The notes under the pieces: model-generated
Told to the model about the DNA's origin: nothing
Databases searched by the model: none
Seen by the model: the letters and a program-made list of their open reading frames with translations, nothing else
Source: a virus
Length of the DNA: 20,938 nucleotides
IMG/VR virus record: IMGVR_UViG_3300037584_001106
Coordinates: 1 to 20,938 of that record
Strand: one strand, 5' to 3'
Part shown: positions 1 to 20,702 of the stretch, piece after piece
Layout: the number at the start of each line of letters is the position of its first letter
How positions within the stretch are numbered: position 1 is the stretch's first letter
Translations under genes and position numbers: made by a program

Positions 1-2540
1 GCTATCGCACCTGGCATTGTAAATGTAGCTAAGAAATCTCCAATTTTTTTCTCTAAGTCTGGTGTTATTTTTTGTTTTGCTGCAGCATCTAGTATTGCAA
101 CAGGAATACCAAGATCAAAAGAAAATTCTGGTATACCACCAAGAACATCCTGTAGATCTCTCTTTAGCTGATCTGTGTTATCAAAAGAAGTAGGAAGACC
201 ATTCTCTTTTCTCCACGCTTGATCACCTAGATACATATGAAACATGGCAGCACCAAGTAAAGGTTTGAGATCCTCTTGTGATCCTAGCTCATTCTTTATA
301 GATCCGTAGTCAACTTCACCATCTCTATCTTTTGCTATCTGATACCCTGCAAACAACATCATAGTCCCAGTGGCTTGACGTGCATACCTAGTGGCATCAT
401 CTTTAGCACCTTCAGTTAAACCTGATCTGTGTAACATCTCTCCAAGGATAGGGGCATAATCAGATACCGTTTGTAAATGGTTTCCTAAATACCTTGGAAA
501 GGGGATACCTGCTGCTGTTGATACCAAGAATGGTACTTTTCTATTTAAGTTTACTAAGCCTCTCGTAGTACTCGCTAGTACAGAGTCAGCACCCCTGAAG
601 TCTCTCTGCATGGTAAGTCTGTTTGCGTCATCGACAGCAAGGTTCAGATCTATTCCTTCTGGTAGGTCTTCTAACTTAGTGTTAGTTCTTAACCAGTCAG
701 ACATCGACATACCTTTATCTCTGAACTGTCTCTCTAGATTTCCGTAGAAGATACCCTCTTTAAAAACAGAATCAGAAAGAGTGTTAGCCATGTTTACAAA
801 CCTACCTACTCTGGCTAAAACTCCACTGCTTTCCATACCAACTTCAAGTCTCATCGCTTGGTTGTACAAGCGCATGGATTGTTCTGGCATTTCCTCTAAC
901 ATAATTTGACGTAGTAATTTAGCCTCTGTGTTGTTAAAAGAAAGACCTCTGACAACTGCTGTCATGTTAGGTATAAAAGTTTTTATTTGAGATGCGTCAC
1001 CAGTAATCCCTTTGTAGATAGCCTTGTTAACCTGGTCTACCATATCTGTTCCAATAAGGATACCTACGTTGGTCAAGTTACGCATTGTAGTAGCAGGTTG
1101 AGAAGTCATGAAAGATATTCTCATGGTGTCTAAGTCTTGCAATAACTTGTAACCAATACCACCTTTAGAGTTTCTGACTGCTGCTGCAGCTATCTCCTGT
1201 GCGTCTTGACTACTGATAGATGAAGCACCCTTAGAAAATAAAACATCTATATTAGATGCTTTATCCATATCTATCTTAGCACCACGTTTTATAGCACTCT
1301 GAAATCCTAGAGTCTGACCTGCTCTTGATACCTCAGATAAGTAGATCATAGAGAACTCATCTTTGGAAAGACCATACTCATCCTTTACCTTCTTGAGTAT
1401 CGTAAATACTTTTTGAGAATCTCCATCTCTCATCTTGTTGGCTATGGCCTGAGTAATTCTGATGTCACCACCCTTAGTGTCTAGCTTCAACTCTCTCATG
1501 AGATCTACACTAGCAGCAGCAATACCTCTCATTGTTTGTGCTGAAAGACCAGAACTAAACTCTGGGTTTGCCTTTGGATCTGACATTGAGTTAAGGATAG
1601 CTCTGCCCTTGGCTACACGTTCAGGGTCTAACCTACCTTTTATCTTAGCACCTTTTACTCCTGCACGAGCAGACAGTATATCTTCTATATCAGCTACAAT
1701 ATTCATAGCTTGTTTCTTCTCAGCGTCTGAAGCATCTTCTATAGTTTTAAGAGATTTTTTAGCAGCCTCTTCTGCTTGCTTCTTAAATGTAGTGTTTCTC
1801 TCCAACATTACATCGGCTACTTTTTTAGCTTTACCTCTACCTACAACACCAGAGATATAACCTGTAGCTGCACCAAAAGTTCCTTCAGTCACAGCGCCCA
1901 CAGTAGAGTCAAAGATTAAATCTTTTGTTGTGTACTCTGGACCTACCCCAAGCTCTTCCCTAGTTTCACCCTGCTGTTTACCCTGAAACCCAGAGACAGC
2001 AGCACCAGTACCTGTACCTATAGCCCCTTCTTTTAAGGACTGTCTTGCGATAGATGACTTAACTACATTCTTCTTTAGAGTTTCTTTCAGACCTGCTCTG
2101 ACAGCTAACTGAACACCCTTAGATGCTACTTTAGCTCCTACTTTTCCAAGACCAAAACTAGCAAAGCCCAAGTAAGTAGATGGTGCTGTAACCACACCCT
2201 CTGCAAAGTCTCCAAGACCATCAAAGAAACCTGTACCTGCTTCTTTAGAATTGTCCCACGCCTGAGTCAGCCTACCGAAAGCTTGTTTACCTTTGTAGCT
2301 AAAGTCTTTGTTGCGAACATAGTTTAAATCTTTTGTGGCAGTAACTTCGTTGACTGATTGTGCTCTCATGTGTTCTATAAAATCTTTAGTTAGATTTTCA
2401 AAACCCATTTCTCTCATTTCATCTTTGGTATACTTATACCTACCACCACTAAAGAAACTAACTAAGTCTCTTTTAAAGTTATCATCCTCAACAAGATTAA
2501 TAAAACTAGAGTCAGGTGCTTTTTGTACGTAAGTACTCAT
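1..2540 (-). CDS. Very large probable internal virion (DNA-ejection) protein, 3' end beyond the window
   Basis: Reading from the ATG at 2538-2540, the frame stays open to the left edge: 846 complete codons with no stop, so the C-terminus is missing. The start overlaps the stop of the 311-residue gene in a TAATG arrangement, with only a weak GAAGAG upstream as a ribosome binding site. Residues about 103-235 are rich in Gly and Ala, alternating hydrophobic and basic stretches (for example GLGKVGAKVASKGVQLAVRAG-like sequence near 130-150). Residues about 235-300 are highly charged and look helical (KKQAEEAAKKSLKTIEDA). I recognise no enzyme motif. Great length, helical character and a place at the end of the tail and transglycosylase gene run resemble the large ejection proteins of T7-like and marine podoviruses; that role is inferred, not shown. 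Confidence 0.8.
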   Translation of the reverse strand, partial: MSTYVQKAPDSSFINLVEDDNFKRDLVSFFSGGRYKYTKDEMREMGFENLTKDFIEHMRAQSVNEVTATKDLNYVRNKDFSYKGKQAFGRLTQAWDNSKEAGTGFFDGLGDFAEGVVTAPSTYLGFASFGLGKVGAKVASKGVQLAVRAGLKETLKKNVVKSSIARQSLKEGAIGTGTGAAVSGFQGKQQGETREELGVGPEYTTKDLIFDSTVGAVTEGTFGAATGYISGVVGRGKAKKVADVMLERNTTFKKQAEEAAKKSLKTIEDASDAEKKQAMNIVADIEDILSARAGVKGAKIKGRLDPERVAKGRAILNSMSDPKANPEFSSGLSAQTMRGIAAASVDLMRELKLDTKGGDIRITQAIANKMRDGDSQKVFTILKKVKDEYGLSKDEFSMIYLSEVSRAGQTLGFQSAIKRGAKIDMDKASNIDVLFSKGASSISSQDAQEIAAAAVRNSKGGIGYKLLQDLDTMRISFMTSQPATTMRNLTNVGILIGTDMVDQVNKAIYKGITGDASQIKTFIPNMTAVVRGLSFNNTEAKLLRQIMLEEMPEQSMRLYNQAMRLEVGMESSGVLARVGRFVNMANTLSDSVFKEGIFYGNLERQFRDKGMSMSDWLRTNTKLEDLPEGIDLNLAVDDANRLTMQRDFRGADSVLASTTRGLVNLNRKVPFLVSTAAGIPFPRYLGNHLQTVSDYAPILGEMLHRSGLTEGAKDDATRYARQATGTMMLFAGYQIAKDRDGEVDYGSIKNELGSQEDLKPLLGAAMFHMYLGDQAWRKENGLPTSFDNTDQLKRDLQDVLGGIPEFSFDLGIPVAILDAAAKQKITPDLEKKIGDFLATFTMPGAI

Positions 2541-3475
2541 TATTGATTATACTCTTCATTAATAATTGTTTCTTCAACATTGTCAGGAGATAAAGGCATT
2601 GGTCCCTGAAACGGAGGAGGAATTTTAAATGTTTTATAGCTCTCTGCAATATCCCTCAAGTCTATGCTTGGATCTTCGGTCAAAGCATCTACTCTTTCAT
2701 AAATATCCTTAATAACTTCAGCCCCACTTCTTGACTTTAATGGGTCAGACATCTCTTCTACATAATAATTTACTGCGTTATTTAATATTTCACCAGAAGC
2801 GTCTGGGTGAGTAAATTGTAACTGACCAGTTGCCTCATTAGTTGTTGTTTCTAACTGGCTCATTAAATTATTTTGTATAACTTCTCTAGCTGCTTTCAGA
2901 TCCGCAGGATCGTAGGCTATTAAAGCTCTTTTATTTATATCGAAAGATCTTATACTAGGAGCAGTAAGACCTCCTGTACTAGCTGAATCCATCAGAGGAG
3001 CGATAGCCCCCTCAAATTCTTCTTGAGTGTTAGCATATATAGCTTCAACTAATTTATCAGAGCTTGGGTCTTCCGCAAAACCTAGATCAAATGCGTACTC
3101 CATAGCTGAAGCAATTTTATCTACAGATAAATTCTGTAGTACTACCTCACTTAATCTCCTTATTCCTGCTTCATTTATTTTCTTATCAGGATCATCAGAC
3201 TGCTGAACTTTTTCAAGAGGTACAAGGATTCTAGCAAGAGAACCACTAGACTCAAGAACTGCAGCAGCTTCTTTTGTTATTCCAAAACCTATAGCTTTAG
3301 AAAGTCTACCAGATATTTCTTTTCTTTCAGCTTTGTTTCTCTCTATCCTCTCAAGTAAGATAGGTATAACAGTTGCTTTACGTTTCTCTAGAAGATCAAG
3401 CATGAACATATCATTACGTTCTTTCCTGTCTTCCATACGTCCTAATTCTTCTACCACACCTGCAAAAAATCCCAT
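2540..3475 (-). CDS. Uncharacterised phage protein, probable virion component
   Basis: This 311-residue protein is not one I can name. It starts two bases after the stop of the 168-residue gene (TAG-GT-ATG), with GAGGG about seven bases upstream of the ATG, and its own stop overlaps the start of the very large gene that follows, so the three are surely cotranscribed and probably translationally coupled. The sequence is almost entirely predicted-helical and charged: residues about 12-60 (ELGRMEDRKERNDMF, then LLERIERNKAERKEI) look like a coiled coil, and the rest alternates acidic and hydrophobic segments. There is no signal peptide, membrane span or Cys-rich site. The tail is acidic and Pro-rich. 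Position among transglycosylase and large ejection-like proteins suggests an internal or tail-associated virion protein; this is context only. Confidence 0.8.
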   Translation of the reverse strand: MGFFAGVVEELGRMEDRKERNDMFMLDLLEKRKATVIPILLERIERNKAERKEISGRLSKAIGFGITKEAAAVLESSGSLARILVPLEKVQQSDDPDKKINEAGIRRLSEVVLQNLSVDKIASAMEYAFDLGFAEDPSSDKLVEAIYANTQEEFEGAIAPLMDSASTGGLTAPSIRSFDINKRALIAYDPADLKAAREVIQNNLMSQLETTTNEATGQLQFTHPDASGEILNNAVNYYVEEMSDPLKSRSGAEVIKDIYERVDALTEDPSIDLRDIAESYKTFKIPPPFQGPMPLSPDNVEETIINEEYNQ

Positions 3476-3477
3476 AC

Positions 3478-3984
3478 CTATGCCCTCGCCATTAGTCCTT
3501 TGGGTTCTGGTTTAGGTTCTTCCAGATCCATTTCTATTTGTTCTTCTACTTCTGGCTCATCTACTGAGTCACTTAATTCCTGTTCACCTGATAAAACTTT
3601 TTTAGCTAAGTTAACATTCTGAGAATATCTCAACTCAGACTCACCTTCTTTATCATCAAAGCCGTGATCGTATTCTACTTCTACAGCGTCTAGTGTACTT
3701 GCAATAAATTCGTGTATCACAGGAGCAACAACAAGGCTTACATCTATACTATGTATACCCTCCATAACTGCACTCCTAAGTATACCCTCAGTAATAGTTC
3801 TTACGTCTACACCTTTATCAACTAAATAAACTATACCTTCCATTCTTTCTGGATCGTTTAATCTACTCAAATGAACCATAAGTGCTTCATCAGGATCAGA
3901 TAATTCAGGTGGTCTTTCATAAGGTGGGTTACGTGGTGCTGCTGTTAAAGACTGACCAGGAACAGGTGCATCTAGTAAAGCCAT
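3478..3984 (-). CDS. Conserved marine-phage protein of unknown function, probable virion component
   Basis: This 168-residue protein opens with MALLDAPVPGQSLT, a start I associate with marine phage proteins encoded beside internal virion genes, followed by a Pro-rich stretch (residues about 16-30). Residues 30-110 look globular and helical (ILRSAVMEGIHSIDVSLVVA is the most conserved-looking part). Residues about 135-165 are a very acidic, Pro-containing tail. It begins inside the TAATG overlap with the transglycosylase stop and has a strong GGGGAG ribosome binding site eight bases upstream of the ATG. No catalytic motif or membrane segment is visible. The function is unknown; the arrangement suggests it is made together with, and perhaps binds, the neighbouring 311-residue and very large proteins. 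Confidence 0.82.
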   Translation of the reverse strand: MALLDAPVPGQSLTAAPRNPPYERPPELSDPDEALMVHLSRLNDPERMEGIVYLVDKGVDVRTITEGILRSAVMEGIHSIDVSLVVAPVIHEFIASTLDAVEVEYDHGFDDKEGESELRYSQNVNLAKKVLSGEQELSDSVDEPEVEEQIEMDLEEPKPEPKGLMARA

Positions 3985-4667
3985 TATACTTCTCCCCTTA
4001 CTGTCTCATCTTTAGAGCTAAAAGAGAACTTGTTATAATAATCTTTTAGACTGGTCTGGTTAGAGTCCTCTGGATTATACTTCATGTTTGTGCTGATAAA
4101 CTTTTTCATACCTGTTATACCACCAAGATGGGCTACAGCACGAAGACCATCTTTGTCAAATCCCTTTGCTTTGTCACCAAGTTTTGCAATATTTTTATCG
4201 ATGTCAGATACGTGCCACTTCATAACATCTATTTGAATCTTTTTACTATCTCTAAAATCACTCATGCTAAAGTCTTTACCAGTTGCTTTCTTATAATCTT
4301 TTATTCTAGCCTCACCAAACTGACCAAGACCTGTATACTTTTTACCATCTTGTTTTGTTACTATACTTTTTCTACCAGAACTTTCAGCCTGTATTAGTCT
4401 AGATATAAAATCATTAACACTATCTTCACCACGAAGTTCAAAGGGTTTTGTCTCTGGTCTAAGTTCTAAAGCCTGATCAACTAACTCTTGTTGAAAGATT
4501 GTGTAGTCACCTGGTCTATACTTCTCTCTTTCAGGAGTAGTCTCAGGTTTTTTCTTAGGTCTTTTTCTGACAATACCACTTAACTGAGAAGATATAAGAT
4601 CTCCACTGGTTTTAGTAGGCATACTGAAAGCACCACTGTAACTTAATATTCTATCTTTATTATACAT
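3984..4667 (-). CDS. Lytic transglycosylase-like virion protein
   Basis: This protein probably cleaves peptidoglycan locally during DNA entry. The visible signature is that of an SLT/lysozyme-like fold: residues about 85-117 (from the start chosen here) contain FISRLIQAESSG with the likely catalytic Glu95, then a short insert and YTGLGQF at about 111-117, where G-x-Q-F is the usual substrate-groove motif. LRAVAHLGG at about 175-183 matches the later helix of the family. The N-terminal 70 residues are basic and Pro-rich. I chose the ATG at 4667 (227 aa) because GGAG sits five bases upstream at 4673-4676 and this start lies just beyond the stop of the 978-residue gene. An in-frame ATG at 4745 would add 26 residues with a hydrophobic segment but overlaps the upstream gene by 68 bases and lacks a spaced ribosome binding site. 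Its stop overlaps the next start. Confidence 0.8.
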   Translation of the reverse strand: MYNKDRILSYSGAFSMPTKTSGDLISSQLSGIVRKRPKKKPETTPEREKYRPGDYTIFQQELVDQALELRPETKPFELRGEDSVNDFISRLIQAESSGRKSIVTKQDGKKYTGLGQFGEARIKDYKKATGKDFSMSDFRDSKKIQIDVMKWHVSDIDKNIAKLGDKAKGFDKDGLRAVAHLGGITGMKKFISTNMKYNPEDSNQTSLKDYYNKFSFSSKDETVRGEV

Positions 4668-4672
4668 CTCTG

Positions 4673-4676
4673 CTCC
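4673..4676 (-). promoter_or_regulatory. Ribosome binding site that decides the transglycosylase start
   Basis: GGAG on the minus strand lies five bases before the ATG at 4667. It favours this start over the longer frame beginning at 4745, whose only purine run (AGAGG) touches its ATG with no spacer. Confidence 0.6.
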
Positions 4677-4677
4677 A

Positions 4678-7614
4678 CTAATTAAAAATACCGCCAAAGC
4701 TATCGCCAAAGAATATTTTAGTCCATAAAGATCCTTTTGCCGCATCCTCTTCAGACTCCAACTCCATCCTAACAGCCTCTAACTGTTTATCAGCTAGAAG
4801 AATATTAAGTGCTCTGTCCTTACCATTCTCTGAAGACTTAAAAGTATAATCCATCAAGTCCCTTTCTTTCTGCCAAAGTTCATCTAAGTTTTTACCAGTC
4901 AAAGCATTCATAGTTTGTGCAAAATCCATGTTGCTTTGGTTCTGTGTGGCAGTGTTAAGAGTAGCTATGTTCTGTCTCCATTTAGCGTTTGCTTGTGCAA
5001 TGACTAAACCATTTTGTGCGTTAAATAAATCACGTTGTTGTTGTAACCCAGAATTAAATTCACGTAAAGCATTAACACTGTTTACGTTAAACTGATCCAT
5101 AGCATTTATCTGGGTAGCATTAAACTGCTGAGACTGAGAATTTAAGTTAGCAAAAAACTGAGCAGTTTGGTTGGTGCTTGTAGCGTTAAACTGCTCTGCG
5201 GCATTCTCAGCAGCAGCGTCAGTAAACAACGATGATATATTTTGTTGTGCTTTAAAGATAGCAGTCTGTTGTTTATTGGACAGGTTAGCCATGTCTAGCT
5301 GTAAGAAGTTCTGAGCGTTAGCTACCTGTGCTTGTTGTAGATTACTTAACCCTTGTGTTTCTAGTGAAGATAACTGGGCCGCTTCAGCCAGGACTACAGC
5401 TTGTCGGTTACTGAGATTACTCAACTCCATTGTGTTAGCAGCCCTTGAATTTTCCAGAGCAACCTGTTGTTCAGCACTAAAGTTTATGTTAGCAATCTCA
5501 GATACTCTGGCTGCATTTTGTACTTTAGCTTGAAAGGCTTGATCAAAATCCATTTGCATGAATCTAGATCTTTGTTCAGCTTTCAACATAGCCATCTGTT
5601 GTTTGTTACCTGCATCAATTTGTGCGATAGGTAATGCTGCTTCCATAGCTGCCTGTATGATAGCCTGTCCTGCGAGAGATGAAGCACCAAGACCTCTCTC
5701 TGCCATTATTGCAGTGGCTCTACGCATAGATCCTGCAGCCCATGCAGGTGTGTTACCACCCTCAAACTGTTGCATAAGACCTGTTAGTTCATCTTGTATT
5801 GAAGCAGCCTGTACCTGTCCTGTTCCAAATGCTTGACCAACTTGTGCTTGGTCTACACCAGTACCAGTAATAACCTCTCCCTGTGGTCCTGTCTGTAAAG
5901 TACGAACAGGTGCTTGACCACCTGCTACCTGTTGTACAGTTTGAGCTTGACCCTGTGCAGCCTGAACGCCACTAACAGCAGTTGTGTCCTGTGTTTGACC
6001 TGTAACAGCCTGAGAAGGTGCTGCTGTTTGTTGAGGAAGTAAATCTTGTGTTTGTTTTTTAACGTCTGTAAATGTTGCAACAGGAGTAGCTTGATCTGCT
6101 GACATTGCTGTTGGTAGTTTAGTTACTTCAGCAGTGCCAGTTGTAGCAACTTCTGCAAATGGAGCTATGGGTGTAACCTGACCTGCATCTACTGGCATAA
6201 ACTCAGCAGCGGTAGGCATTACCATAGAAGTAGGAGCTTGTATAGGTTGCATTGTCTGAGAGACAAGACCCTGCTGCATACCTTTAAATTGTTCAGCAGT
6301 CAAACCACCAGTCTGAAACCCTTGAACAACACCACCCTGAGAACCGCCCATAACTGCAGAAGCGGTTGTACCTGCTGTGTTAGTATTTGTTGTTCCTGTA
6401 GCAGTATTTGCTGCTGTTGTTGTAGTGTCAGCAGCAGGAGTAGTTGTACCAGTTACATCTGTTCCTGATTTCTTAGTTCCCTCTTTGTAGAAACCTGGAG
6501 GAACATAGGTAGTAGCTTTTCCATTAAACTCAGTAACAGGAATACGTTGTCCTAGATCATTGACATAGTATACAGTCCTGTAACCTGTGGTAATACTCTG
6601 ACCTACTCCTGGTTGAGTTGTTACCAGTGATTGAGGAACTGCACCTGGAGTACCTGCATAATGAGACTTATATGTTACTTGTGATGGTACAGCAGAAACA
6701 CCAGATGATTGAACTGGAGCAGAAAAAGTTCCTGTTGTAGGTATCTGTGTTTGTGCAGTTGTATCTGTTCCTGTCTGGTAATTAACAGGACTTACTTGCT
6801 GTACTACAGTCTGTGGAATATTAGAATCAACTGTAGCCACTTGTCCTGCACCTACTTGCTGAACATCTGTACTAGGTATAACTGAAACAAAATCAGAACC
6901 TGCAACATCATCATCTAAGTCAGTTCCTATAATATCATCAATAGTATCATCAACAGTATCATCAACAGTATCATCGACAGTATCATCAACATCAACAGTA
7001 TCATCAACAATATCATCGACAGTATCATCAACATCAACAGTATCAGTAGACATACCTGCTTTTAAATTTTCAAAAGCACCTAAAACTCTAGTTATATTAG
7101 TATTTCTTTTTCCTTTTTTCTTAGGTGGAGTTGCTACTCTACTAGAGTTACCATCAATATCTATCTTCTGGATAAAGCTAGAGTTTTTACCTGATACAGC
7201 TAGGTACTGATTACCTTCAGCATCTGTGTGACTGTCATAAACAGCATACCCCCCATCACCTTGAGTAATAATATCGTCATATCTACTTCCTTTTGTTTCT
7301 ACTCCTCCCAGTATCATAGGAGCATCTCTAGTAGCATCACTGTAATTACCAGTTCGTGTACCTTGTAAAGAATTATACTTCTTAAGTATAGTATTACCTG
7401 CAGACTGAAGCTCTTTTAACTTTGTACTTGCATCACCCCTACCTGCAAGTGTTTGACCATAACGGTCTTTAGCATTCATTATCTTGGAGTAGTCACCAGT
7501 TTGAGCAGCTTCTAAAATAGCTTTTTCCCTATCCACAGCAGCTTGAGCGTTTCGAGCATCTTCATCCGCATATCCTCTAGTGTCACCGTATATGTCTGTA
7601 ACTTGTACTGTCAT
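4678..7614 (-). CDS. Large probable internal/ejection virion protein with acidic repeat and long 11-residue helical repeat
   Basis: This 978-residue protein has four visible regions. Residues 1-190 are mixed globular, with a basic PPKKKGKR patch near 163-170. Residues 191-236 are an acidic repeat of TVDD units. Residues about 240-620 are low-complexity, rich in Thr, Gln, Ala, Val and Pro. Residues about 623-666 are a compact Ala/Gly/Met helical segment (MAERGLGASSLAGQAI), followed at 667-908 by about 22 consecutive 11-residue repeats starting mostly with Asn, predicted to be a very long helix or coiled coil. The last 30 residues are acidic and then hydrophobic (WTKIFFGDSFGGIFN). There is an AAGGA ribosome binding site seven bases before the ATG. 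No enzyme motif is seen. Long helical Gln/Ala-rich proteins next to a transglycosylase are typical of podovirus ejection complexes, so that is my inference. A tape-measure role is less likely given the adaptor/nozzle genes. Confidence 0.85.
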   Translation of the reverse strand: MTVQVTDIYGDTRGYADEDARNAQAAVDREKAILEAAQTGDYSKIMNAKDRYGQTLAGRGDASTKLKELQSAGNTILKKYNSLQGTRTGNYSDATRDAPMILGGVETKGSRYDDIITQGDGGYAVYDSHTDAEGNQYLAVSGKNSSFIQKIDIDGNSSRVATPPKKKGKRNTNITRVLGAFENLKAGMSTDTVDVDDTVDDIVDDTVDVDDTVDDTVDDTVDDTIDDIIGTDLDDDVAGSDFVSVIPSTDVQQVGAGQVATVDSNIPQTVVQQVSPVNYQTGTDTTAQTQIPTTGTFSAPVQSSGVSAVPSQVTYKSHYAGTPGAVPQSLVTTQPGVGQSITTGYRTVYYVNDLGQRIPVTEFNGKATTYVPPGFYKEGTKKSGTDVTGTTTPAADTTTTAANTATGTTNTNTAGTTASAVMGGSQGGVVQGFQTGGLTAEQFKGMQQGLVSQTMQPIQAPTSMVMPTAAEFMPVDAGQVTPIAPFAEVATTGTAEVTKLPTAMSADQATPVATFTDVKKQTQDLLPQQTAAPSQAVTGQTQDTTAVSGVQAAQGQAQTVQQVAGGQAPVRTLQTGPQGEVITGTGVDQAQVGQAFGTGQVQAASIQDELTGLMQQFEGGNTPAWAAGSMRRATAIMAERGLGASSLAGQAIIQAAMEAALPIAQIDAGNKQQMAMLKAEQRSRFMQMDFDQAFQAKVQNAARVSEIANINFSAEQQVALENSRAANTMELSNLSNRQAVVLAEAAQLSSLETQGLSNLQQAQVANAQNFLQLDMANLSNKQQTAIFKAQQNISSLFTDAAAENAAEQFNATSTNQTAQFFANLNSQSQQFNATQINAMDQFNVNSVNALREFNSGLQQQRDLFNAQNGLVIAQANAKWRQNIATLNTATQNQSNMDFAQTMNALTGKNLDELWQKERDLMDYTFKSSENGKDRALNILLADKQLEAVRMELESEEDAAKGSLWTKIFFGDSFGGIFN
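4891..5616 (-). repeat. About 22 tandem 11-residue (33 bp) helical repeats
   Basis: Residues 667-908 of the 978-residue protein break cleanly into 11-residue units with no insertion, for example NATQINAMDQF, NVNSVNALREF, NSGLQQQRDLF, NAQNGLVIAQA. Position 1 is most often Asn and positions 8 and 11 are usually hydrophobic or aromatic. Units from different parts are close: NLSNRQAVVLA, NLSNKQQTAIF, and DAGNKQQMAML. Eleven-residue periodicity fits right-handed or nearly straight coiled coils. Confidence 0.75.
6907..7044 (-). repeat. 12-bp minisatellite encoding an acidic TVDD repeat
   Basis: On the plus strand the 12-base unit atcatcaacagt and close variants (gac for aac, aat for agt) recur, with an extra 6 bases (atcaac) at two places. 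A compound unit starting at tcatcgacagtatcatc occurs twice. It encodes residues 191-236 of the 978-residue protein, nearly all Asp, Thr, Val and Ile. The frame is preserved because every length change is a multiple of three. Confidence 0.85.
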
Positions 7615-7624
7615 ATCTTATTCC

Positions 7625-7879
7625 TTACTTTCCCATTGTCATCCACACCGCACCTGCAATAAACGTTAGCAGTGCGACAGTGGTTACTTTAACTACAGTT
7701 GACCAGACAGACTTACGTGTGTCACGCCATGCCTCTAGCAAACTTCTCATCTCTATAATATCTCTGGCAGCATCATCGTCAAGTAGCCCAATAGAACGTA
7801 GTGCCTCTTTAGCACCACGTCTAGCTGCGTTGTCTAGCATTGTCTCTACCTCTTCTGGTGTCAATTTAATATCACTCAT
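7625..7879 (-). CDS. Small single-span membrane protein, DUF6127-like
   Basis: This 84-residue protein resembles the small phage proteins grouped as DUF6127, recalled from the pattern TPEEVETMLDNAARRGAKEALRSIGL rather than from a search. Residues 1-50 are a soluble, helical, charged part. Residues about 61-82 are one hydrophobic segment (VTTVALLTFIAGAVWM), preceded by RDTRK and ending two residues before the C-terminus. This gives an N-in type II tail-anchored topology by the positive-inside rule. It starts five bases after the stop of the 662-residue tail protein and ends ten bases before the 978-residue gene; I see no good ribosome binding site, so it may rely on coupling. Small membrane proteins between tail and ejection genes can be holins, but one span with a large soluble part is also compatible with a virion membrane anchor. 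Function remains open. Confidence 0.78.
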   Translation of the reverse strand: MSDIKLTPEEVETMLDNAARRGAKEALRSIGLLDDDAARDIIEMRSLLEAWRDTRKSVWSTVVKVTTVALLTFIAGAVWMTMGK

Positions 7880-7883
7880 ATTG

Positions 7884-9872
7884 TTATGCTATTGCGTAGA
7901 AGATGTAATCACCAGTAGTGAAGAAATTACCAGTAATCGTAAAACCTGAACTTAATGGATCAATTGCATCAGACGCACCATAACTATCTTCAGCATCATT
8001 TTTATCTAAAAGTAAATAGGGGTCATTCCCTGCTACAATTCCTCTAGTTGAATCAAACACAACCCAATTTCCTGTATCATTATAGCGTTTTAAAAGTATA
8101 AATCTTGCACCACTACTAAAGCCACAATCTACGTTAGTTGTAGAGCCGTTTGTGTGGCTGACGCTTCCCACCTTCGATACACCTGCTACGGTAGCGAAAA
8201 GGTAAGCTACATGACTTTCATTTGCTTGATTTACCCTATTAGAATTACCCACAGTAAATACTGAAGATGTAGGCGTTGTATTATTAAAGTAAGCACTATC
8301 GTTGGCACTTGCACCAGAAGTACCGTCTAGATCAAGTTTCTTTTGAGCGCCAATTGTTTTACTATATACTGCCCAAGAAGCTGTTCTATCTCTATTTTTT
8401 ATCCAAATCATCTCAGGTACTACACCAAGATTATGAGTTATGTTTTGAGATGTATAGTAGTTGTTATTACCTGTGTAAGCAACCACATCAAAATACCCAG
8501 GTGCTCTCCTCCACATCCAACTTTGACGACTAGTACTTATTGTTGTTGAGCCAGAATACCAACCAGTTTGATGATCAAAAGTGCCATCATTGTTTGCTCC
8601 CTCAACATCATGTGTATCAGTCGTTATAAAGGTTTTTCCTAAAAGTCTAGTTCCAACAACAAAGTTACCAGTATTAGCTACTCTTCTTTGCCAAGCAAAA
8701 TCAACAGGAAAACCTGCGGTATATTGATCTCCAGTAACAGTGTTATTGTTATCACTATGCGATGTGTCCATAGCAAAAACTTTAGTCGCATCATCTGGTA
8801 CAGCCAGTGGACCTCTGCGTATTGCCATGTAGATAAATGTGTTACCGTTTTTGTTTGATGTATCTTCATTAGCCAAATCAAAACCTGTTGCAGTGAAGTT
8901 CATAGGTATACCACCACCTTCACTTGTATTTGAGTTTGGAAATAAATATTTATCATCGGCAGCGGAGCTACTTGTAACAACGCCCCTCATGCTATCAAGT
9001 ATTACCCAGTTACTAGAGGAGCTTGCACTTTTTAAAAATATAAATTGAGGTTCAAAACCTAATGAAATAGATTGAGTGCTACCATTACCAGTGTAACTCC
9101 CACACTTAATAATATCAGCATCACCATCAGGGCCGAACTCACCGTCACCGTTGTTATGTGCGAATAGGTAGGCTACGAAGGTTGCTCCATTAATATTAGT
9201 GTAAGTACCATATCCATCTATGTATTCGGGTCTAAAGTCAGTTGCAGTAAAACCACTCGACAAACCACTAGTCTTTGTACCTATATAGCCAGTGCTGTCA
9301 AAACCAAAAGTGCTACTAGATTGCCTATAACCTCTATCTCCATCAGAGTACAAAGGACTCATAAGCCAAGGGCCATCGGCATCTGTTCTTTTCATCACAA
9401 TATGCCCAGGTACTGCGCCTAAATTATGATTTACTCGTTGTGAACCACTTCCGTTTGAAGTCCACGTTACAACATCAAAAAACTTAGGGGCTTTGCGAAA
9501 ACTCCAAGAGACGTAGTCATATGTGCTATCGTTCATATCATTACTAGCATCGTTGTTAAGAGCAAATCCTGTTGAGCTAGTAGTAAAAACATTAGACCCA
9601 TTAAAAGTTTGTATGCCGCTAGTAAGATTAGTGCGTAGCTTTTTGCCACCTGTTGCACCACTTTCGCTGTCAAATAAAGAATGATTAGATGAAGTTGACC
9701 TATTTTTAATCCAAACCAAACCACCCTCGCCACTAAGGTCAATGTTGTTGGTGATCGTTTGTGTAGAGTTATTTCCCTTATACAAAAACGTGCTGAACAC
9801 ATCGTCTACATCAAGACCTGCACCACCTGCACCTGCAGTAGCTCTTTGCATCATTCTTGCAATGTTACTCAT
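7884..9872 (-). CDS. Modular tail/receptor-binding protein (DUF7483-like), paralogue B
   Basis: This 662-residue protein is a paralogue of the 650-residue protein at 12580-14532. Both begin with a Gly/Ala segment followed by GLDVD(D/E)VFSTFL and NNSTQTITNNIDLSGEGG, almost identical for about 38 residues. Both are built of about six ~100-residue modules, each with a (H)NLG-x-x-P or GFEP turn, an aromatic strand ending in K (FIFLK, MIWIK, FILLK), a Trp and a closing strand such as AYLFA, IYMAIRRG or FYAIA. The modules look like the repeated beta domain called DUF7483 in marine phages (from memory). No signal peptide or enzyme motif is visible. The shared N-terminus suggests a common virion attachment point, and the diverged centre suggests different ligands. 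The start has AGGATAA nine bases upstream. The stop lies five bases before the small membrane protein gene. Confidence 0.8.
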   Translation of the reverse strand: MSNIARMMQRATAGAGGAGLDVDDVFSTFLYKGNNSTQTITNNIDLSGEGGLVWIKNRSTSSNHSLFDSESGATGGKKLRTNLTSGIQTFNGSNVFTTSSTGFALNNDASNDMNDSTYDYVSWSFRKAPKFFDVVTWTSNGSGSQRVNHNLGAVPGHIVMKRTDADGPWLMSPLYSDGDRGYRQSSSTFGFDSTGYIGTKTSGLSSGFTATDFRPEYIDGYGTYTNINGATFVAYLFAHNNGDGEFGPDGDADIIKCGSYTGNGSTQSISLGFEPQFIFLKSASSSSNWVILDSMRGVVTSSSAADDKYLFPNSNTSEGGGIPMNFTATGFDLANEDTSNKNGNTFIYMAIRRGPLAVPDDATKVFAMDTSHSDNNNTVTGDQYTAGFPVDFAWQRRVANTGNFVVGTRLLGKTFITTDTHDVEGANNDGTFDHQTGWYSGSTTISTSRQSWMWRRAPGYFDVVAYTGNNNYYTSQNITHNLGVVPEMIWIKNRDRTASWAVYSKTIGAQKKLDLDGTSGASANDSAYFNNTTPTSSVFTVGNSNRVNQANESHVAYLFATVAGVSKVGSVSHTNGSTTNVDCGFSSGARFILLKRYNDTGNWVVFDSTRGIVAGNDPYLLLDKNDAEDSYGASDAIDPLSSGFTITGNFFTTGDYIFYAIA
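9711..9820 (-). repeat. Paralogous DNA block, copy B (5' end of tail protein B)
   Basis: Partner of the copy at 14374-14490 in the same orientation. Other closely similar pairs include 8176-8204 with 12887-12915 (29 identical bases) and the stop-codon region 7883-7904 with 12579-12600 (one mismatch in 22). Confidence 0.7.
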
Positions 9873-9878
9873 TCGTTA

Positions 9879-11783
9879 TTATCCTGCTGCGTCAATTGCT
9901 AGAGCACCGTACCAGTTAGTGCCACCGTCTACTGTAATAAATACAAGCACGTCAGTCTCACCTGATGCAGGAGCATCTGGGGCTGTACCACCTGCAAAGT
10001 CTACAGTGTTTGGATATGTTATACTGTGTGATCCACCCGATGTAAGTTTAAGTGTAAAGCCGTAAGCTGTACCTGAAGCAGGTGGGTTACTAAATGTAAA
10101 GGTAGTATTACCTGATGTAGTTAAAGCAAATACGTTTCCGTTATTACAGTTTACTGTAGGTGATGTTCCTGATAGGGATACATATGTTTCAGCATAAGAC
10201 TGTGCACGAGTCTTACCAGTACTGTCTGTAACAACTCTAGGATTACCATCCCCATCCGACAGCACGATGTTGTTGCTTGAGGTGCGGATGTCTAGGCCAT
10301 TTTCGTTGCCGTCATAGCTACCTACGATTACGTTCTTAGAGCCTGATGTCATTGCACCACCTGCATTATGGCCTAATCCTGTATTATGAGTTCCTGTTAC
10401 ATCGCTAAGAGTACCGTAACCAAATGCTGTATTATTATTTCCACAGTTACCATTACCCAAAGCTGACCTGCCAACAGCGGTACACTGAGTTGCATCATCA
10501 ATACCATCACCTGTTAATGCACCGATAAAAGTGTTATCTGTTCCTGTTGTGACTGATAGTCCTGCATTGTAGCCTACTGCCACATTATAATTATCTACAT
10601 CAGCATTTTGTGCATTTAAAGCACTGTAGCCAATTGCTACATTTTTACGGCCTGTATCTTCTGTACTTAAAGCAGCATGACCCATAACTACATTTTCACT
10701 ACCTGTGGTCAAAGCATCACCTGCAAGCGCCCCCACGAGGTTGTTAAGTGTGCCTGTTGTGATTGCTTTACCTGCTGAGTGTCCCACTGCAACATTAAAA
10801 GTATTACCTGCTGAAGAAGGATTTTGGTTCAATAATGCATCAGTACCAACTGCTGTAGCTTTGTCACCATTTGTATTTGTTGAAAGAGAACTATGACCAA
10901 TAGCAACGTTCTGAGCCCCTATAGTTGTAGCACCTGCTGCATCTTTACCCACTGCAACATTTTTGTTAGCACCAGTCATAGCATCACCTGCTGCTGCACC
11001 GATAAGGGTATTCTCTGTGCCTGTAGTCATTCTTCTACCTGCAATGTGACCAACGGCTGTATTGTTACCAGTTGCCCCTGCATTTAAATCTTCTAATGCT
11101 TGATGACCTACTGCTGTATTTTGACCATGACCATCTTCGGCTCTTAATGCTTGAAAACCTACTGCTACATTCTCGGCCCCTGTTATGACATTCAGTCCTG
11201 CTTCTGCACCAAAAAAGGTGTTACTTGTACCTGTTGTGACGGAATTACCTGCGGTATAACCAACGGCTGTATTGTTACTATCGGTGGCGGTGGTGAAGTT
11301 TTGTGCTCCTAAAGCACCTCTACCTACGGCTGTACTCCTAGAACCTAAAGTATCTGACCCTAAAGCATTACGTCCTACAGCTACATTATTATCCGCATCA
11401 GTTAGAGCATCTCCTGCACCACCACCAATTAAGGTGTTATCTATGCCTGTTGTGACTGCTGTTCCTGCATTATGGCCTATAGCTATGTTATAATCACCAC
11501 CAGATTGCAGACTGTCTAACGCAGTATCACCCAACGCCACGTTGCCTGTACCAGTAGGATAATTACCGTCTAGCTTTATTGTGCCGCCATCAACAGCTAA
11601 AGTATTAATAGTGGCTGTACCTGTAAGTGTTGCATTTCTAACACTTGCTATATCTTTGTTTGCATCTACGACTAGAGCCTTAGATGCTGTAACAGTACCT
11701 GCTGTAACACCGTCCAATACATCAAGCTCAGTGTCTGAGACACCTGTTGAAATATAGTCAGCTAAATCTCTTGCTCTAGTCAT
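9879..11783 (-). CDS. Tail fibre with 17-residue beta-roll repeats (YadA-head-like)
   Basis: This 634-residue fibre has three parts. Residues 1-80 are an N-terminal head (TRARDLADYIS is a common fibre start) that probably attaches it to the virion. Residues 81-492 consist of about 24 repeats of 17 residues with consensus N-(T/V)-A-V-G-x-x-A-(G/L), recalling the left-handed beta-roll of trimeric YadA-type adhesin heads. Residues about 493-634 are a different, beta-rich C-terminal domain (SLSGTSPTVNCNNGNV, and GGTNWYGALAIDAAG at the end) that is likely the receptor-binding tip. There is a good AAAGGA ribosome binding site nine bases before the ATG. It lies between the 72-residue gene (27-base gap) and paralogue B (6-base gap). 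A trimeric state is expected by analogy, not shown. No S74-type self-cleaving chaperone is visible at the end. Confidence 0.85.
   Translation of the reverse strand: MTRARDLADYISTGVSDTELDVLDGVTAGTVTASKALVVDANKDIASVRNATLTGTATINTLAVDGGTIKLDGNYPTGTGNVALGDTALDSLQSGGDYNIAIGHNAGTAVTTGIDNTLIGGGAGDALTDADNNVAVGRNALGSDTLGSRSTAVGRGALGAQNFTTATDSNNTAVGYTAGNSVTTGTSNTFFGAEAGLNVITGAENVAVGFQALRAEDGHGQNTAVGHQALEDLNAGATGNNTAVGHIAGRRMTTGTENTLIGAAAGDAMTGANKNVAVGKDAAGATTIGAQNVAIGHSSLSTNTNGDKATAVGTDALLNQNPSSAGNTFNVAVGHSAGKAITTGTLNNLVGALAGDALTTGSENVVMGHAALSTEDTGRKNVAIGYSALNAQNADVDNYNVAVGYNAGLSVTTGTDNTFIGALTGDGIDDATQCTAVGRSALGNGNCGNNNTAFGYGTLSDVTGTHNTGLGHNAGGAMTSGSKNVIVGSYDGNENGLDIRTSSNNIVLSDGDGNPRVVTDSTGKTRAQSYAETYVSLSGTSPTVNCNNGNVFALTTSGNTTFTFSNPPASGTAYGFTLKLTSGGSHSITYPNTVDFAGGTAPDAPASGETDVLVFITVDGGTNWYGALAIDAAG
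10308..11543 (-). repeat. About 24 repeats of 17 residues (51 bp) in a ~70-residue superrepeat
   Basis: Most units are exactly 17 residues, for example NTAVGHIAGRRMTTGTE, NTLIGAAAGDAMTGANK and NVAVGKDAAGATTIGAQ. Three unit types recur in fixed order: an AVGxxAGxxVTTGT unit, an NTxxGAxAGDA unit, and one or two AVGxxAL units, the last often 18-21 residues long. This gives a higher-order period of about 70 residues (about 210 bp), present five times with one longer copy. Confidence 0.85.
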
Positions 11784-12048: not shown

Positions 12049-12549
12049 TTATGGTTTTGTAGGCCAGTCATCTTCTTCTAGGTTAGGCCAGTTTTTGTGA
12101 TCAGGTAGATCACGTAATGCTTGTCTGTATGTCTTCATACTATCTGACATAGTTACATCAGACAAGGCATAAAAGTCTGTATCTGCAAGTTTGGTGTCTC
12201 TAGTTGATCTGTTTGATGCAGCAACATTAGTGTCTAGTGTAGATTGATAAGCTGCTTCATGTTCTGCTTTAGTAGTCTTCTTACCATCTTCGTCAGTTGT
12301 ATCAGCAAACATGTCTTTAGCTACGTACTTCTCAACCCAGTTGCCTTTGCTGTCTTGCTCTACACCATCACGCACACTTGTTTGATATGCAGTGGTTGTA
12401 GCAGCAGGAGATGCCAGTACTGGATCAATATTCATTGCGTCACAGACGTTGCTTGTCCAGACCCTTGGCAGAGACATATTAGGAAATGCTGCTCTCCATT
12501 GGCCTTGTGTTTTAACTTCACCTGTTTTTCTTTCACGATATTCTGACAT
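12049..12549 (-). CDS. Tail fibre assembly chaperone (Phage_tail_APC-like)
   Basis: This 166-residue protein ends with the hallmark of phage tail assembly chaperones (Pfam Phage_tail_APC, PF16778, recognised by eye): residues about 113-166 hold NRSTRDTKLADTDFYAL, then YRQALRDLPDHKNWP and a final WPTKP. In this family the C-terminal part has conserved R-x-x-R, an LxxxD/DW segment and a YRQALRDL helix followed by WP. The N-terminal region (QWRAAFPNMSLPRVW) is also of the type found in such chaperones. These proteins act in the infected cell, helping a fibre fold or join the particle, and are normally encoded next to their client. Candidate clients here are paralogue A just upstream or the beta-roll fibre just downstream. 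There is an AAAGGAG ribosome binding site nine bases upstream. The gene is 30 bases after paralogue A. Confidence 0.82.
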   Translation of the reverse strand: MSEYRERKTGEVKTQGQWRAAFPNMSLPRVWTSNVCDAMNIDPVLASPAATTTAYQTSVRDGVEQDSKGNWVEKYVAKDMFADTTDEDGKKTTKAEHEAAYQSTLDTNVAASNRSTRDTKLADTDFYALSDVTMSDSMKTYRQALRDLPDHKNWPNLEEDDWPTKP

Positions 12550-12579: not shown

Positions 12580-14532
12580 TTATGCGATTGCGTAGAAGAT
12601 AAAGTCATCACCGCTACCATTAAACGGACTATCTCCAGGCAGATTAAATCCAGATGAATGTGGAGCAATATAGTCTGCGCTGTTATCTGACTCTGTAAAC
12701 TGTGCGTCAGTGCTATTTAATTTAAGTATTTTATCAGTTTGACCAGAGCTTATTCCTCTAACGCTATCTGCAATATACCAACTGTCTGTTCCGTCATAAC
12801 GTTTAACAAGGACAAACCTACTTCCTGATGAAAAACCACAATCTATATTTTGACTAGAGGCTGTTCCAGTATAGCTTCCCACCTTGGATACACCTGCTAC
12901 GGTAGCGAAAAGGTAGGCTATATGAGCTAAATTATTCTCATTAGTATCGTTTGACGTGCCAAGTGTAAACACACTAGCTGTAGGCGTTGTGCTGTTCCAT
13001 GCAGATGTAAGAGTAGCTGACGCAGCTGTTGCATTTAGTTTTAAAGCTTTAGTATTTCCTAGCGCAGAATGATACACTCTCCAATCGCTAGTATAAGGCC
13101 GCTGCTTTACCCACATCATCTCTGGTACTGCACCAAGGTTATGGCTTACAGTATGCCCTGCTGTTCCGTTTCCTTTGTAAGTAACCACATCAAAATAACC
13201 AGGTGCTCTTCTCCACATCCATGAAATATCATTAGTATCTGCGTTACTTGCTTCTCTGTACCCATTATTGTAATCAAAAATAAATTGACTTGATGAGCTT
13301 TCAGCATCATTCCCATCTGTTTTCAAAAATCTACCCGAAATAAGTCTTGCAGAATTAAACCACTGATGTACTGCATCTGTTCTTTTTCTTATAGCCATAT
13401 CCACAACAAAGTTACTAGTATGTGCAGGATCTGTTGTAGAACCACCTGACCCTTTATCATCAATAGCAAAAACCTTAGTCGCATCAGTAGGTGCAGCTAG
13501 TGGGCCTCTGCGAATTGCCATGTAAATGAAAGTAGCATTAGAAGCATTTATTCTTGAGTTAGCATTTATGACGTTAAATCCATTAGCATCAAAATCAATA
13601 TCGTTGTTTGCAGTCTCTGTATCACTAGTGTTTGGCTCCAGAAGATTTGTTGTCCCACCTGTCGCCACACCACGCATAGCATCAAAGATTTTCCAATCGC
13701 CAGTATCGGTGGTTGCCCTTTTAATCATAACCCACTGAGGTTCAAATCCAAGATTAATACTGAGGCCATTTCCAGAACCATTTCCAGTATAACTCCCACA
13801 CTTAATAACATCTTGATTACCATCAAGGCCGAACCCACCGTCATTATTGTTGTGTGCGAATAGATAGGCTATGTAGGTTTGACCTTCTTCGTTTGTTTGG
13901 TTATATGCAATAGTAAAATAACTGTCATTTACAATTCTTACTGTGTTTGCATCAAGCCCGTTTTTTGCACTTGTATCATCTAAATATAAAACATCTCCTG
14001 TTGACATACTTCTATGAGCAACTTGCCAACGGTCACCATTTTGTGATACTTTTTTAACTATGATCATGCCTGGAGTGCTGCCCAAATTGTGAGAGATTTG
14101 CTTTGAGTGATTTGTTGTGCCGTCTCCATCTGACCAAGTTACAATATCAAAAAACTTAGGGGTTTTGCGAAATGTCCAAGAGGTGTAGTCTTCGGATGAA
14201 GAGTTTATTGACCAACCATTATCTGCTTCCAAAGTAAAACCTGTAGAGGTAAAATCGTTAAAACCACCATCTATAGTGTAATTTCCACCAGTAGCATCTG
14301 AACGTATCATCTTTGTGTTACCTCTTATGGTATCAATCAGCCGATGCCCTTCGTTGCCTGTTCTTTCTTTAATCCAAACCAGACCACCTTCGCCACTAAG
14401 ATCAATGTTGTTGGTAATTGTTTGTGTAGAATTATTTCCACTCCATAGAAACGTGCTGAACACTTCATCCACATCAAGACCTGCACCTGCTGCAGCACCA
14501 CTACCTAAAATTTGCATCATAATGCCTGACAT
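12580..14532 (-). CDS. Modular tail/receptor-binding protein (DUF7483-like), paralogue A
   Basis: This 650-residue protein consists of a short Gly/Ala-rich start and about six ~100-residue modules. The anchor strands are VWIK (52-55), IIVK (157-160), VMIK (268-271), MAIRK (379-383), MWVK (473-476) and VLVK (574-577). Most are preceded by NLG-x-x-P or LGFEP and followed 10-15 residues later by a Trp and an RG. Module ends share WTFRKTPKFFDIV, AYLFAHNN, IYMAIRRG, WMWRRAPGYFDVV, AYLFATVAG and FYAIA. The end of the protein is also the end of the last module. This is the DUF7483-type beta architecture as I remember it. It is paralogous to the 662-residue protein 4.7 kb downstream. Its ATG overlaps the stop of the 1300-residue fibre (TAATG), with AGGGA about ten bases upstream. 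A role in host surface binding is inferred from composition and context. Confidence 0.8.
   Translation of the reverse strand: MSGIMMQILGSGAAAGAGLDVDEVFSTFLWSGNNSTQTITNNIDLSGEGGLVWIKERTGNEGHRLIDTIRGNTKMIRSDATGGNYTIDGGFNDFTSTGFTLEADNGWSINSSSEDYTSWTFRKTPKFFDIVTWSDGDGTTNHSKQISHNLGSTPGMIIVKKVSQNGDRWQVAHRSMSTGDVLYLDDTSAKNGLDANTVRIVNDSYFTIAYNQTNEEGQTYIAYLFAHNNNDGGFGLDGNQDVIKCGSYTGNGSGNGLSINLGFEPQWVMIKRATTDTGDWKIFDAMRGVATGGTTNLLEPNTSDTETANNDIDFDANGFNVINANSRINASNATFIYMAIRRGPLAAPTDATKVFAIDDKGSGGSTTDPAHTSNFVVDMAIRKRTDAVHQWFNSARLISGRFLKTDGNDAESSSSQFIFDYNNGYREASNADTNDISWMWRRAPGYFDVVTYKGNGTAGHTVSHNLGAVPEMMWVKQRPYTSDWRVYHSALGNTKALKLNATAASATLTSAWNSTTPTASVFTLGTSNDTNENNLAHIAYLFATVAGVSKVGSYTGTASSQNIDCGFSSGSRFVLVKRYDGTDSWYIADSVRGISSGQTDKILKLNSTDAQFTESDNSADYIAPHSSGFNLPGDSPFNGSGDDFIFYAIA
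14374..14490 (-). repeat. Paralogous DNA block, copy A (5' end of tail protein A)
   Basis: This stretch, encoding the first ~38 conserved residues, matches 9711-9820 with only scattered substitutions, mostly at third positions (for example cgccactaag then atcaatgttgttgg against gtcaatgttgttgg). The two copies are direct repeats about 4.67 kb apart. Confidence 0.7.
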
Positions 14533-19974: not shown

Positions 19975-20702
19975 TAAAATACTCTACCTAGTACTTGATT
20001 AGAAGAGTTGATCCTATCAACAACTGTTGATCTCACTCTTAGCTGTTCATCTACAAGAACTCTTCTCATAGCTTTAATACCGTCTTCAAAGTTTTGTTGG
20101 TGCATTGCAGCACTCTGCTCATTAGACCTAAACCTCATCATGTACATCATAGCGCCATCAATAACTACGTGATTAAACCTATCTGGTATAACAGACGTAT
20201 CATTGAAGGCTGATAAATCAGAAGGAAACTTCCAATAAACATATTCTATTTCGTAGGAGTTATCAGGTATTGGTGTCAATCCAAACTTTTCTTCATTAGT
20301 CTGATATATTAGAGTTGGTGAAGATATGCCTGTTGCATCTCCTGTATCATCAAAGTGTCTGTACTTTTGAATGTACTCATCATACGTAATTGAAGGTAAG
20401 TGCATTGGTGTATTATCAACAGACGTTAACTTCTTAATATAAAAAGTTTCCCAGTCTGCACTAGAATAATCATCAGGAAAAGAATACTGCCTTGTTCCTG
20501 CTGATAGTGTTTGTGTATTAGTTGTTTTTAAGAATGGAAACTCTTGTCCTGTTTGTATTATATTTCTAATGGAGTTATTAATAGCATCTTTAGCTAAAGC
20601 CTGAACGTTACGTACAGTTGTAAAACCATCACCTGCAGTGTCTAGTGTGACTTCGTTTAAACGTGTTAGCAGTTGATTTGTTAAGACTACATAAGTTGCC
20701 AT
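19974..20702 (-). CDS. Probable head-tail adaptor protein
   Basis: This 242-residue protein has the composition and layout of podovirus adaptor proteins (T7 gp11 or SU10-adaptor type). It starts with a helix (LLTRLNEVTL), has a second helix (ALAKDAINNSIRNIIQ, residues about 30-50), and a beta stretch with SAGTRQYSFPDDY and WETFYIKKL, where aromatic residues are typical. A late helical part (NHVVIDGAMMYMMRFRSNEQSA) is followed by a coiled C-terminus. The adaptor ring joins portal to tail nozzle inside the virion. It is the first gene after the hairpin at 20727-20752 and has AAGGGA about seven bases before its ATG. Its stop overlaps the nozzle start (TAATG). Gene order (structural protein, adaptor, nozzle, fibres) supports the call; no search was possible. 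Confidence 0.7.
   Translation of the reverse strand: MATYVVLTNQLLTRLNEVTLDTAGDGFTTVRNVQALAKDAINNSIRNIIQTGQEFPFLKTTNTQTLSAGTRQYSFPDDYSSADWETFYIKKLTSVDNTPMHLPSITYDEYIQKYRHFDDTGDATGISSPTLIYQTNEEKFGLTPIPDNSYEIEYVYWKFPSDLSAFNDTSVIPDRFNHVVIDGAMMYMMRFRSNEQSAAMHQQNFEDGIKAMRRVLVDEQLRVRSTVVDRINSSNQVLGRVF

Follow-up and report, generated by a model that had tools for sequence, protein, structure and literature searches.

A register-locked, expandable array of 11-residue repeats in a candidate ejection protein of HMO-2011-type short-tailed marine phages

The stretch of viral DNA described here, referred to throughout as the window, comprises the whole 20,938 bases of virus record IMGVR_UViG_3300037584_001106 and comes from a short-tailed marine phage of the HMO-2011 type. 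An open reading frame (ORF) on its minus strand encodes a protein of 978 amino acids, which contains a tract of 22 consecutive 11-residue units (residues 667–908, positions 4891–5616). The initial annotation had reported this tract: its coordinates proved exact, the tract is gapless, and the units do mostly begin with asparagine (13 of 22, a fraction of 0.59). The parts of the repeat protein, together with the surrounding genes, are listed in Table 1.

Self-identity of the tract, measured against 500 shuffles, is raised at a lag of 11 residues (0.182, z 4.5) and at a lag of 22 (0.218, z 6.6), and is also raised at lags 33 (z 3.9) and 44 (z 4.5); the next-highest value among the remaining lags from 1 to 59 falls at 55 (z 2.2), also a multiple of 11. 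The repeat in the window tract thus cannot be attributed to chance. The same data show a super-period of 22 residues, absent from the initial annotation, in addition to the 11-residue unit. Tandem Repeats Finder detected no tandem array of DNA within 4891–5616, and self-identity of the underlying DNA at lag 33 is just 0.34. Accordingly, we attribute the register to maintenance at the level of the protein and not to recent duplication of DNA. Across the family the unit approximates to the consensus N-[A/L]-x-[N/A]-x-[Q/N]-Q-[A/I/M/V]-x-[L/M/V/Q]-[F/A], with a glycine plus proline content of about 1% (2% in the units of the window). A separate tandem array of DNA, with periods of 12, 30 and 42 bases, is present at positions 6933–7045, where it encodes an acidic Asp/Thr/Val stretch of the protein's variable N-terminal part.

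The closest known relatives are phage1322_25 of HMO-2011, a phage of SAR116, and its homologues in the CRP, HTVC, CHOED, phiM6 and MQM1 phages. These are homologous to the window protein over both the repeats and the conserved anchors on either side, and stand in a gene neighbourhood of the same kind; they differ in their C-terminal ends and in the spacing between the anchors, which amounts to 18 elevens in phiM6, 33 in HTVC104P and 35 in the metagenomic MW202701. Within the 27 phage records that hold a homologue the label under the match is 'hypothetical protein' in 25, 'huntingtin' in one and missing in one. The 'huntingtin' label, on the homologue of a metagenomic podovirus (MW202701.1, L088:2531-5122), is evidently a misannotation. 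Searches begun from two distant relatives gave the same circle of phage records (27 and 26). A sequence search of the PDB with the window protein produced three weak matches, with E values of 0.19 or worse. The C-terminal end of the HMO-2011 protein, at first suspected of being a common cassette, matched HMO-2011 alone, and the idea was abandoned.

Scans of IMG/VR contributed 80, 79, 80, 1 and 72 loci, of which the first three sets represent the best 80 of 116, 352 and 86 candidates, a choice that tilts the family sample towards close relatives of the queries; the scan with the CHOED sequence returned one locus, identical to its query. The single relative from a scan of bacterial genomes is truncated and lies on a contig of a Rhodobacteraceae metagenome-assembled genome. 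In all, 328 loci were scanned, among them the window itself and 16 phage loci picked out of the 27 records, a few contigs and phages being present in duplicate. The anchors are conserved: in the one preceding the repeats a proline is kept at a frequency of 0.99, a tryptophan at 0.97 and the last alanine at 1.00. We defined the anchor spacing as the distance between this fixed alanine (A664 in the window) and a fixed arginine after the repeats (R934), both of which were found in a single ORF in 312 of the 328 loci; the other 16 were left out without individual inspection.

The spacing in the window is 270 residues, or 24 elevens plus six, for 22 clean units. Across the family it ranges from 193 to 1139 residues (by the window's reckoning, about 15 to about 101 units), and in 311 of the 312 loci, and 19 of the 20 distinct lengths, it leaves a remainder of 6 when divided by 11. 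The sole exception (L119) has one additional residue near the C-terminal edge of the tract; in the longest member (L149) the register is held over all 1139 residues. Many loci are near copies of one another, so the weight of this result rests not on the 312 loci, but on the distinct lengths and on the changes of spacing along a tree, of which there are at least 31 (anchor columns only, 100 in number, for 138 non-redundant rows; quick search). Outside the tract the rule vanishes. All remainders modulo 11 occur on the C-terminal side, where 308 loci give 56 distinct lengths between the arginine and the stop codon, and on the N-terminal side, where the distance to the alanine, counted from the upstream stop or else from the contig end, has 194 distinct values in 312 loci. 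Within the tract the ratio of non-synonymous to synonymous substitution (dN/dS) is 0.015–0.142 in 10 of 14 pairs, figures that are rough, most dS values being close to saturation; in the other four pairs synonymous sites are saturated. The tract thus has a conserved register, a length that changes in quanta of 11 residues, and a history of purifying selection. The strong structural selection that the initial annotation had read into the register is borne out by the near-invariant remainder, the flat controls and the low dN/dS of the pairs that could be estimated.

A landmark within the tract, at about residues 764–806, divides an N-terminal (N) block from a C-terminal (C) block. The length of the N block, measured between the first anchor and this landmark, falls into one class modulo 11 in all 312 loci; 271 of these, and 15 of the 17 distinct lengths, agree even modulo 22 (p 0.002 if the lengths are independent). 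Two of the lengths depart from the modulo-22 rule, and that of the window is among them: the N block of the window's clade is one unit shorter than that of a sister set and, as aligned, the window is without the first unit of CRP-2. Across the family the N block varies from none to about 86 units. The C block, from the landmark to the second anchor, holds about 13 units in the window, from which relatives differ by −1, 0, +2, +3 or +4 units and one locus by +11 (L119 excepted). In many clades two kinds of unit alternate, and the longest tracts, those of L149, L156, L155 and L315 (spacings of 721–1139 residues), contain higher-order repeats of 10 or 20 units, in two clades. Such higher-order repeats would be expected if the array had expanded neutrally, through recombination, with no structural role for its product. 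This explanation is highly improbable and already contradicted: the protein register persists although the DNA repeats are long gone, purifying selection is apparent in the 10 of 14 pairs that could be estimated, and 312 loci reveal one single-residue slip.

Table 1. Features of the repeat protein and of neighbouring genes in the window.
Feature	Positions	Strand	Remarks
Repeat protein ORF, 978 amino acids	4678-7614	minus	homologues in 27 phage records
22 gapless 11-residue units, residues 667-908	4891-5616	minus	register kept across family
N-terminal anchor, conserved stretch preceding repeats, residues 600-664	5623-5817	minus	profile matched in 321 of 328 loci
N-terminal repeat block, 9 units, residues 667-765	5320-5616	minus	two alternating unit kinds; expandable part in the family
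C-terminal repeat block, 13 units, residues 766-908, Phe-rich	4891-5319	minus	length nearly constant in family
C-terminal anchor, conserved stretch after repeats, residues 909-950	4765-4890	minus	profile matched in 322 of 328 loci
First 570 residues, low-complexity, Thr/Gln/Asp-rich	5905-7614	minus	without match in 25 of 27 phage homologues
Neighbour, 253 amino acids	3984-4745	minus	phrog_26675 'endolysin', E 4e-8
Neighbour, 168 amino acids	3478-3984	minus	in the place of the relatives' gene of 164-198 amino acids
Neighbour, 311 amino acids, shorter than counterparts	2540-3475	minus	in the place of the relatives' gene of 365-935 amino acids
Large gene, at least 846 amino acids, running off the window	3-2540	minus	
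Tail or connector gene	19974-20702	minus	phrog_10775 'tail protein', E 9e-39
Tail or connector gene	18436-19974	minus	phrog_5107 'amidase', E 8e-49; phrog_578 'head closure', E 7e-8

The distribution of residues within the unit was examined on a helical wheel of 11 residues per three turns, built from 138 non-redundant tracts (40,217 residues) and with alanine counted among the hydrophobic residues. Hydrophobicity is highest at 100 and 310 degrees and lowest at 15 and 210 degrees, and its first harmonic is 0.13 against 1.14 for the second. There are two opposite seams, at positions 10-2-6 and 8-11-4, each a 3-4-4 hendecad ladder in which asparagine or glutamine is frequent at one position (6 and 4, respectively). 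One of the polar faces is rich in glutamine (0.44 at position 7 and 0.23 at position 3, with glutamine or serine at both), while the other carries asparagine (0.66 at position 1) and charged residues (0.39 at position 5, 0.36 at position 9); the arc from seam to seam is 150 degrees by way of the Asn/charged face and 210 degrees by way of the Gln face. A non-helical reading of the 2.75-residue period in hydrophobicity was rejected, the wheel tracing this period to the asparagines and glutamines that stand between the hydrophobic positions of each seam.

Helices of two- or three-stranded coiled coils have one hydrophobic seam each, whereas two opposite seams need neighbours on both sides. The dominance of the second harmonic therefore disfavors the classical coiled coil. 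Of the helix or coiled coil proposed in the initial annotation, the helix stands: that the tract is an alpha-helix with two seams is well supported, the helix itself being a prediction. Taken as straight helices with a rise of 0.15 nm per residue, the anchor spacings of the family correspond to 29–171 nm, a range which shows that overall length is not fitted to the periplasm or to any one envelope; the proposal that the length of the array suffices to cross a Gram-negative periplasm is consequently not a safe inference. The repeat pattern is, in sum, stronger than had been recognized, while its reading as a coiled coil of periplasmic length needs revision.

AlphaFold2 gave a helical model for residues 596–978 of the window protein (51 sequences; mean predicted local distance difference test, pLDDT, 53.2; predicted template modelling score, pTM, 0.22), and a second model for a relative with a spacing of 19 elevens, L265 (46 of the 95 complete sequences from its short-tract group; pLDDT 62.7, pTM 0.27). 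The L265 model has helices of 75, 28, 33, 54 and 71 residues preceded by two short ones, and strands of three or more residues occur in neither model. Foldseek comparison of the L265 model with viral models returned one close sequence relative and one weak relative (E 0.004), with no informative fold. The initial annotation had set disorder or a compact helical bundle against its extended helix; models of such low confidence neither establish nor exclude these two outcomes.

The bundle deserves separate consideration. Each pair of hendecads could make up one helix some 20 residues long, with its cap close to the asparagine at the start of every second unit, and such helices could stack antiparallel into a compact alpha-solenoid. 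The 22-residue super-period of many clades and the parity of the N block accord with this arrangement, as does the window model, which in its first half breaks near every second unit start; but single-unit changes are tolerated, as in the N block of the window's clade, the L265 model contains helices far longer than 20 residues, and hardly any glycine or proline is found at the would-be turns. Moreover, the pairwise steps could come from structure or merely from recombination between alike units. We therefore regard the solenoid as unlikely.

The genes that follow the repeat gene provide information on its probable function. In 16 of 16 annotated phage loci the strand of the repeat gene carries, downstream of it, a gene of 164–198 amino acids and immediately thereafter one of 365–935 amino acids, and the next same-strand gene encodes 817–1638 amino acids in 11 of 11 loci whose stretch reaches that far. 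In T7 the ejectosome proteins gp14, gp15 and gp16 have 196, 747 and 1318 amino acids, as given in an excerpt of PMC8954989. The likeness is one of sizes only, and it places the gene of 164–198 amino acids, not the repeat gene, at the position of gp14. The members of the size series are putative ejection genes, and no match to a known ejection family was obtained for any of them. No PHROG matched any of nine proteins, neighbours or homologues, from HMO-2011, CHOED and MQM1; an alignment of the large cassette proteins of these three phages was too divergent for use, and for the large neighbour the best PDB sequence match (E 0.075) was to an unrelated protein.

Several other ORFs of the window were also noted. 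Directly before the repeat gene, at 7625–7879, lies a gene for an 84-residue DUF6127 protein with an apolar C-terminal stretch, which could form a lysis set with the endolysin-like gene at 3984–4745. The proteins encoded at 7884–9872 and 12580–14532 both match Pfam DUF7483 (E 4e-71 and 1e-96) and are likely paralogues. A 634-residue ORF at 9879–11783 has recurring motifs of the type Asn-x-Ala-Val-Gly and Thr-Gly-x-x-Asn-Thr and is without a Pfam match, while the ORF of 1300 residues at 14532–18434 includes an Ala/Ser/Thr run and a 108-base repeat in about three copies (16783–16868 and 17518–17849).

Variable numbers of 11-residue repeats are already known from the tape measure proteins of siphophages, including TP901-1 and staphylococcal and clostridial phages or prophages (excerpts of PMC3271669 and PMC5099701), in which the helix is described as straight, with 0.145 nm per residue (PMC5099701). 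The two arrays are alike in being helical, in varying by whole 11-residue units and in having an aromatic position (here phenylalanine at position 11, in the C block); they differ in that the tape measures belong to long-tailed phages, while the present units are rich in asparagine and glutamine and occur in short-tailed ones. The likeness is one of pattern and does not derive from sequence comparison. By analogy, the repeats might form a straight helical rod along the portal–tail axis or around the DNA in the head, its length setting or filling an internal space. The six-fold variation in spacing, in whole units, would suit such a rod. On the other hand, 12 family records were tested for homologues of both tail genes of the window, and 11 have them, including the record with the longest repeats, that of L149, the remaining one being a 20-kb fragment; and straight lengths of up to 171 nm would be larger than a head. 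The rod is thus a doubtful proposition. Membership of the tape measure proteins proper, beyond analogy, was rejected: HMO-2011-type phages are described as short-tailed (PMC9038755, in part) and short tails are reported for the relatives CRP-1 to CRP-7 (PMC6918029, in part), which speaks against it, although genes for long tails were not searched for.

Further evidence comes from a sister clade with short tracts, in which 23 of 46 members bear a Peptidase_S74 domain at the C-terminal end. Relatives of this end, as present in L235, were found in 32 phage records. One is gp17 of the Pseudoalteromonas virus H6/1 (L334:3137-4213), which leads a series of three genes that bear the name 'putative ejection protein'. 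Its best PHROG match is phrog_6121 'virion structural protein', followed by phrog_598 'DNA ejection' and phrog_4287 'DNA ejection protein', and its sequence is periodic at 33, 22 and 11 residues (z 4.6, 4.2 and 3.0; 29 lags), whereas three other S74 proteins examined had no clear period. Gp17 precedes two genes named for ejection, as the repeat protein may do, and has a like period and, in common with the sister clade, an S74 end; it differs in being shorter and Gly-rich, and the likeness in sequence was compared at the S74 end. Its period hints that repeats of 11, 22 and 33 residues are wider among ejection proteins. In Vibrio phage PVA1 (NC_023605.1) an ORF with an S74 domain (L333:3386-4216), which has no annotated gene in the RefSeq record, directly precedes two genes, called 'released from the phage upon host infection' and 'DNA transfer protein'. 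Octadecabacter DB2_18 is named 'tail spike protein/chaperone' but matches phrog_4287 across most of its length. The end of L235 itself matches phrog_6121 and phrog_4287, and in L191 the match to phrog_6121 extends across the repeats. Together with gene order, the S74 end of the sister clade favors an ejection protein, as the initial annotation had proposed; the assignment is plausible, but unproven.

The S74 domain could instead be the trimerising chaperone of an extended external fibre, whisker or needle. Its presence in half of the sister clade, the variable C-terminal ends of family members, the match of L235 to tail-fibre PHROGs and the names of 10 of the 32 records, which are those of tail fibres or tail spikes, all suit a trimeric fibre. 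It is less readily reconciled with two opposite seams in place of one, with a relative of the S74 end that sits on an ejection protein, with a tail-fibre-assembly match elsewhere in the window (12049–12549) or with the lack of any receptor-binding domain recognized by Pfam. A fibre is, in our judgement, improbable.

A different precedent is protein H of phiX174, which forms a solved decameric tube for DNA with asparagine, glutamine or arginine at 18 of 23 inward positions and delivers the DNA across the envelope, according to an excerpt of PMC7354561. On the wheel used above, residues 151–183 of H have one maximum at 40 degrees and another, split between 230 and 290 degrees (mean 260), on the two sides of a Gln face; this is a single yardstick of 33 residues and does not calibrate the method. 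The two proteins share hendecads, hydrophobic seams on two sides and an amide-rich face. H differs in having three hendecads plus heptads within residues 151–271, in its seam positions and in belonging to a microvirus (PMC7354561), and the likeness is in pattern only.

On the basis of these comparisons we tentatively favor ejection of the protein, with its hendecad helices packed laterally as a barrel or sheet. The hendecads would give straight alpha-helices, with 11 residues to three turns and two opposite hydrophobic seams. Through the seams each helix could join neighbours on both sides, so that copies of the protein, or segments of one chain, would pack as an alpha-helical barrel or sheet and not as a two- or three-stranded coiled coil. 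The C block of about 13 units, some 21 nm if straight, would be the likeliest envelope-spanning or channel part, and the N block would grow and shrink by steps of 11, mostly 22, residues, length changing in whole units because whole units alone keep both seams aligned. Ejection, side-by-side assembly and a channel are what we infer from the evidence above; that the C block is the part which meets the envelope we infer more weakly.

A number of observations weigh against an ejected barrel or sheet. Two seams are also expected of a helical bundle or solenoid, and the seam arcs do not settle which face would line a lumen: likeness to phiX174 would pick the Asn/charged face and not the Gln face. 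The confidence of the AlphaFold2 models is too low to support either a compact bundle or an extended rod, and the breaks at about every 22 residues in the first half of the window model suit short stacked helices over a rod. The longest members are longer than any periplasm. As regards ejection, the window protein has no match in Pfam, PHROG or NCBIfam, none of the 51 members of its alignment has a PHROG match, and no similarity to T7 gp14 was detected, profile comparison included; nor was a virion proteome found among the matches listed from the open-licence literature of PubMed Central (PMC). The clade with the S74 end is not that of the window, which is without this end. L235 also matches tail-fibre PHROGs, if more weakly, and among the 32 records the 10 tail-fibre or tail-spike names compare with four that refer to ejection, injection or transfer, the rest being other names or none. 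In PVA1 the transfer-type name belongs to the gene after the S74 ORF.

A wider reading, speculative and unlikely to hold in full, is that the expandable, register-locked hendecad protein serves short-tailed phages as a modular kit for an alpha-helical DNA conduit, in which an almost fixed block of about 13 units would span the envelope and a block of none to about 86 units, added mostly in pairs, would lengthen or widen it. To our knowledge, the longest form would rank among the longest uninterrupted hendecad arrays known. Among the matches listed for open-licence PMC papers on phage hendecads, HMO-2011 virions or podovirus ejection, excerpts gave no description of this repeat. The modulo-11 rule makes a sharp and testable structural statement about a protein that is unnamed in public records. 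It also connects short-tailed phages with the variable 11-residue repeats that long-tailed phages are known to have in their tape measure proteins, and suggests that phages may commonly resort to hendecad helices in the proteins they thread into cells.

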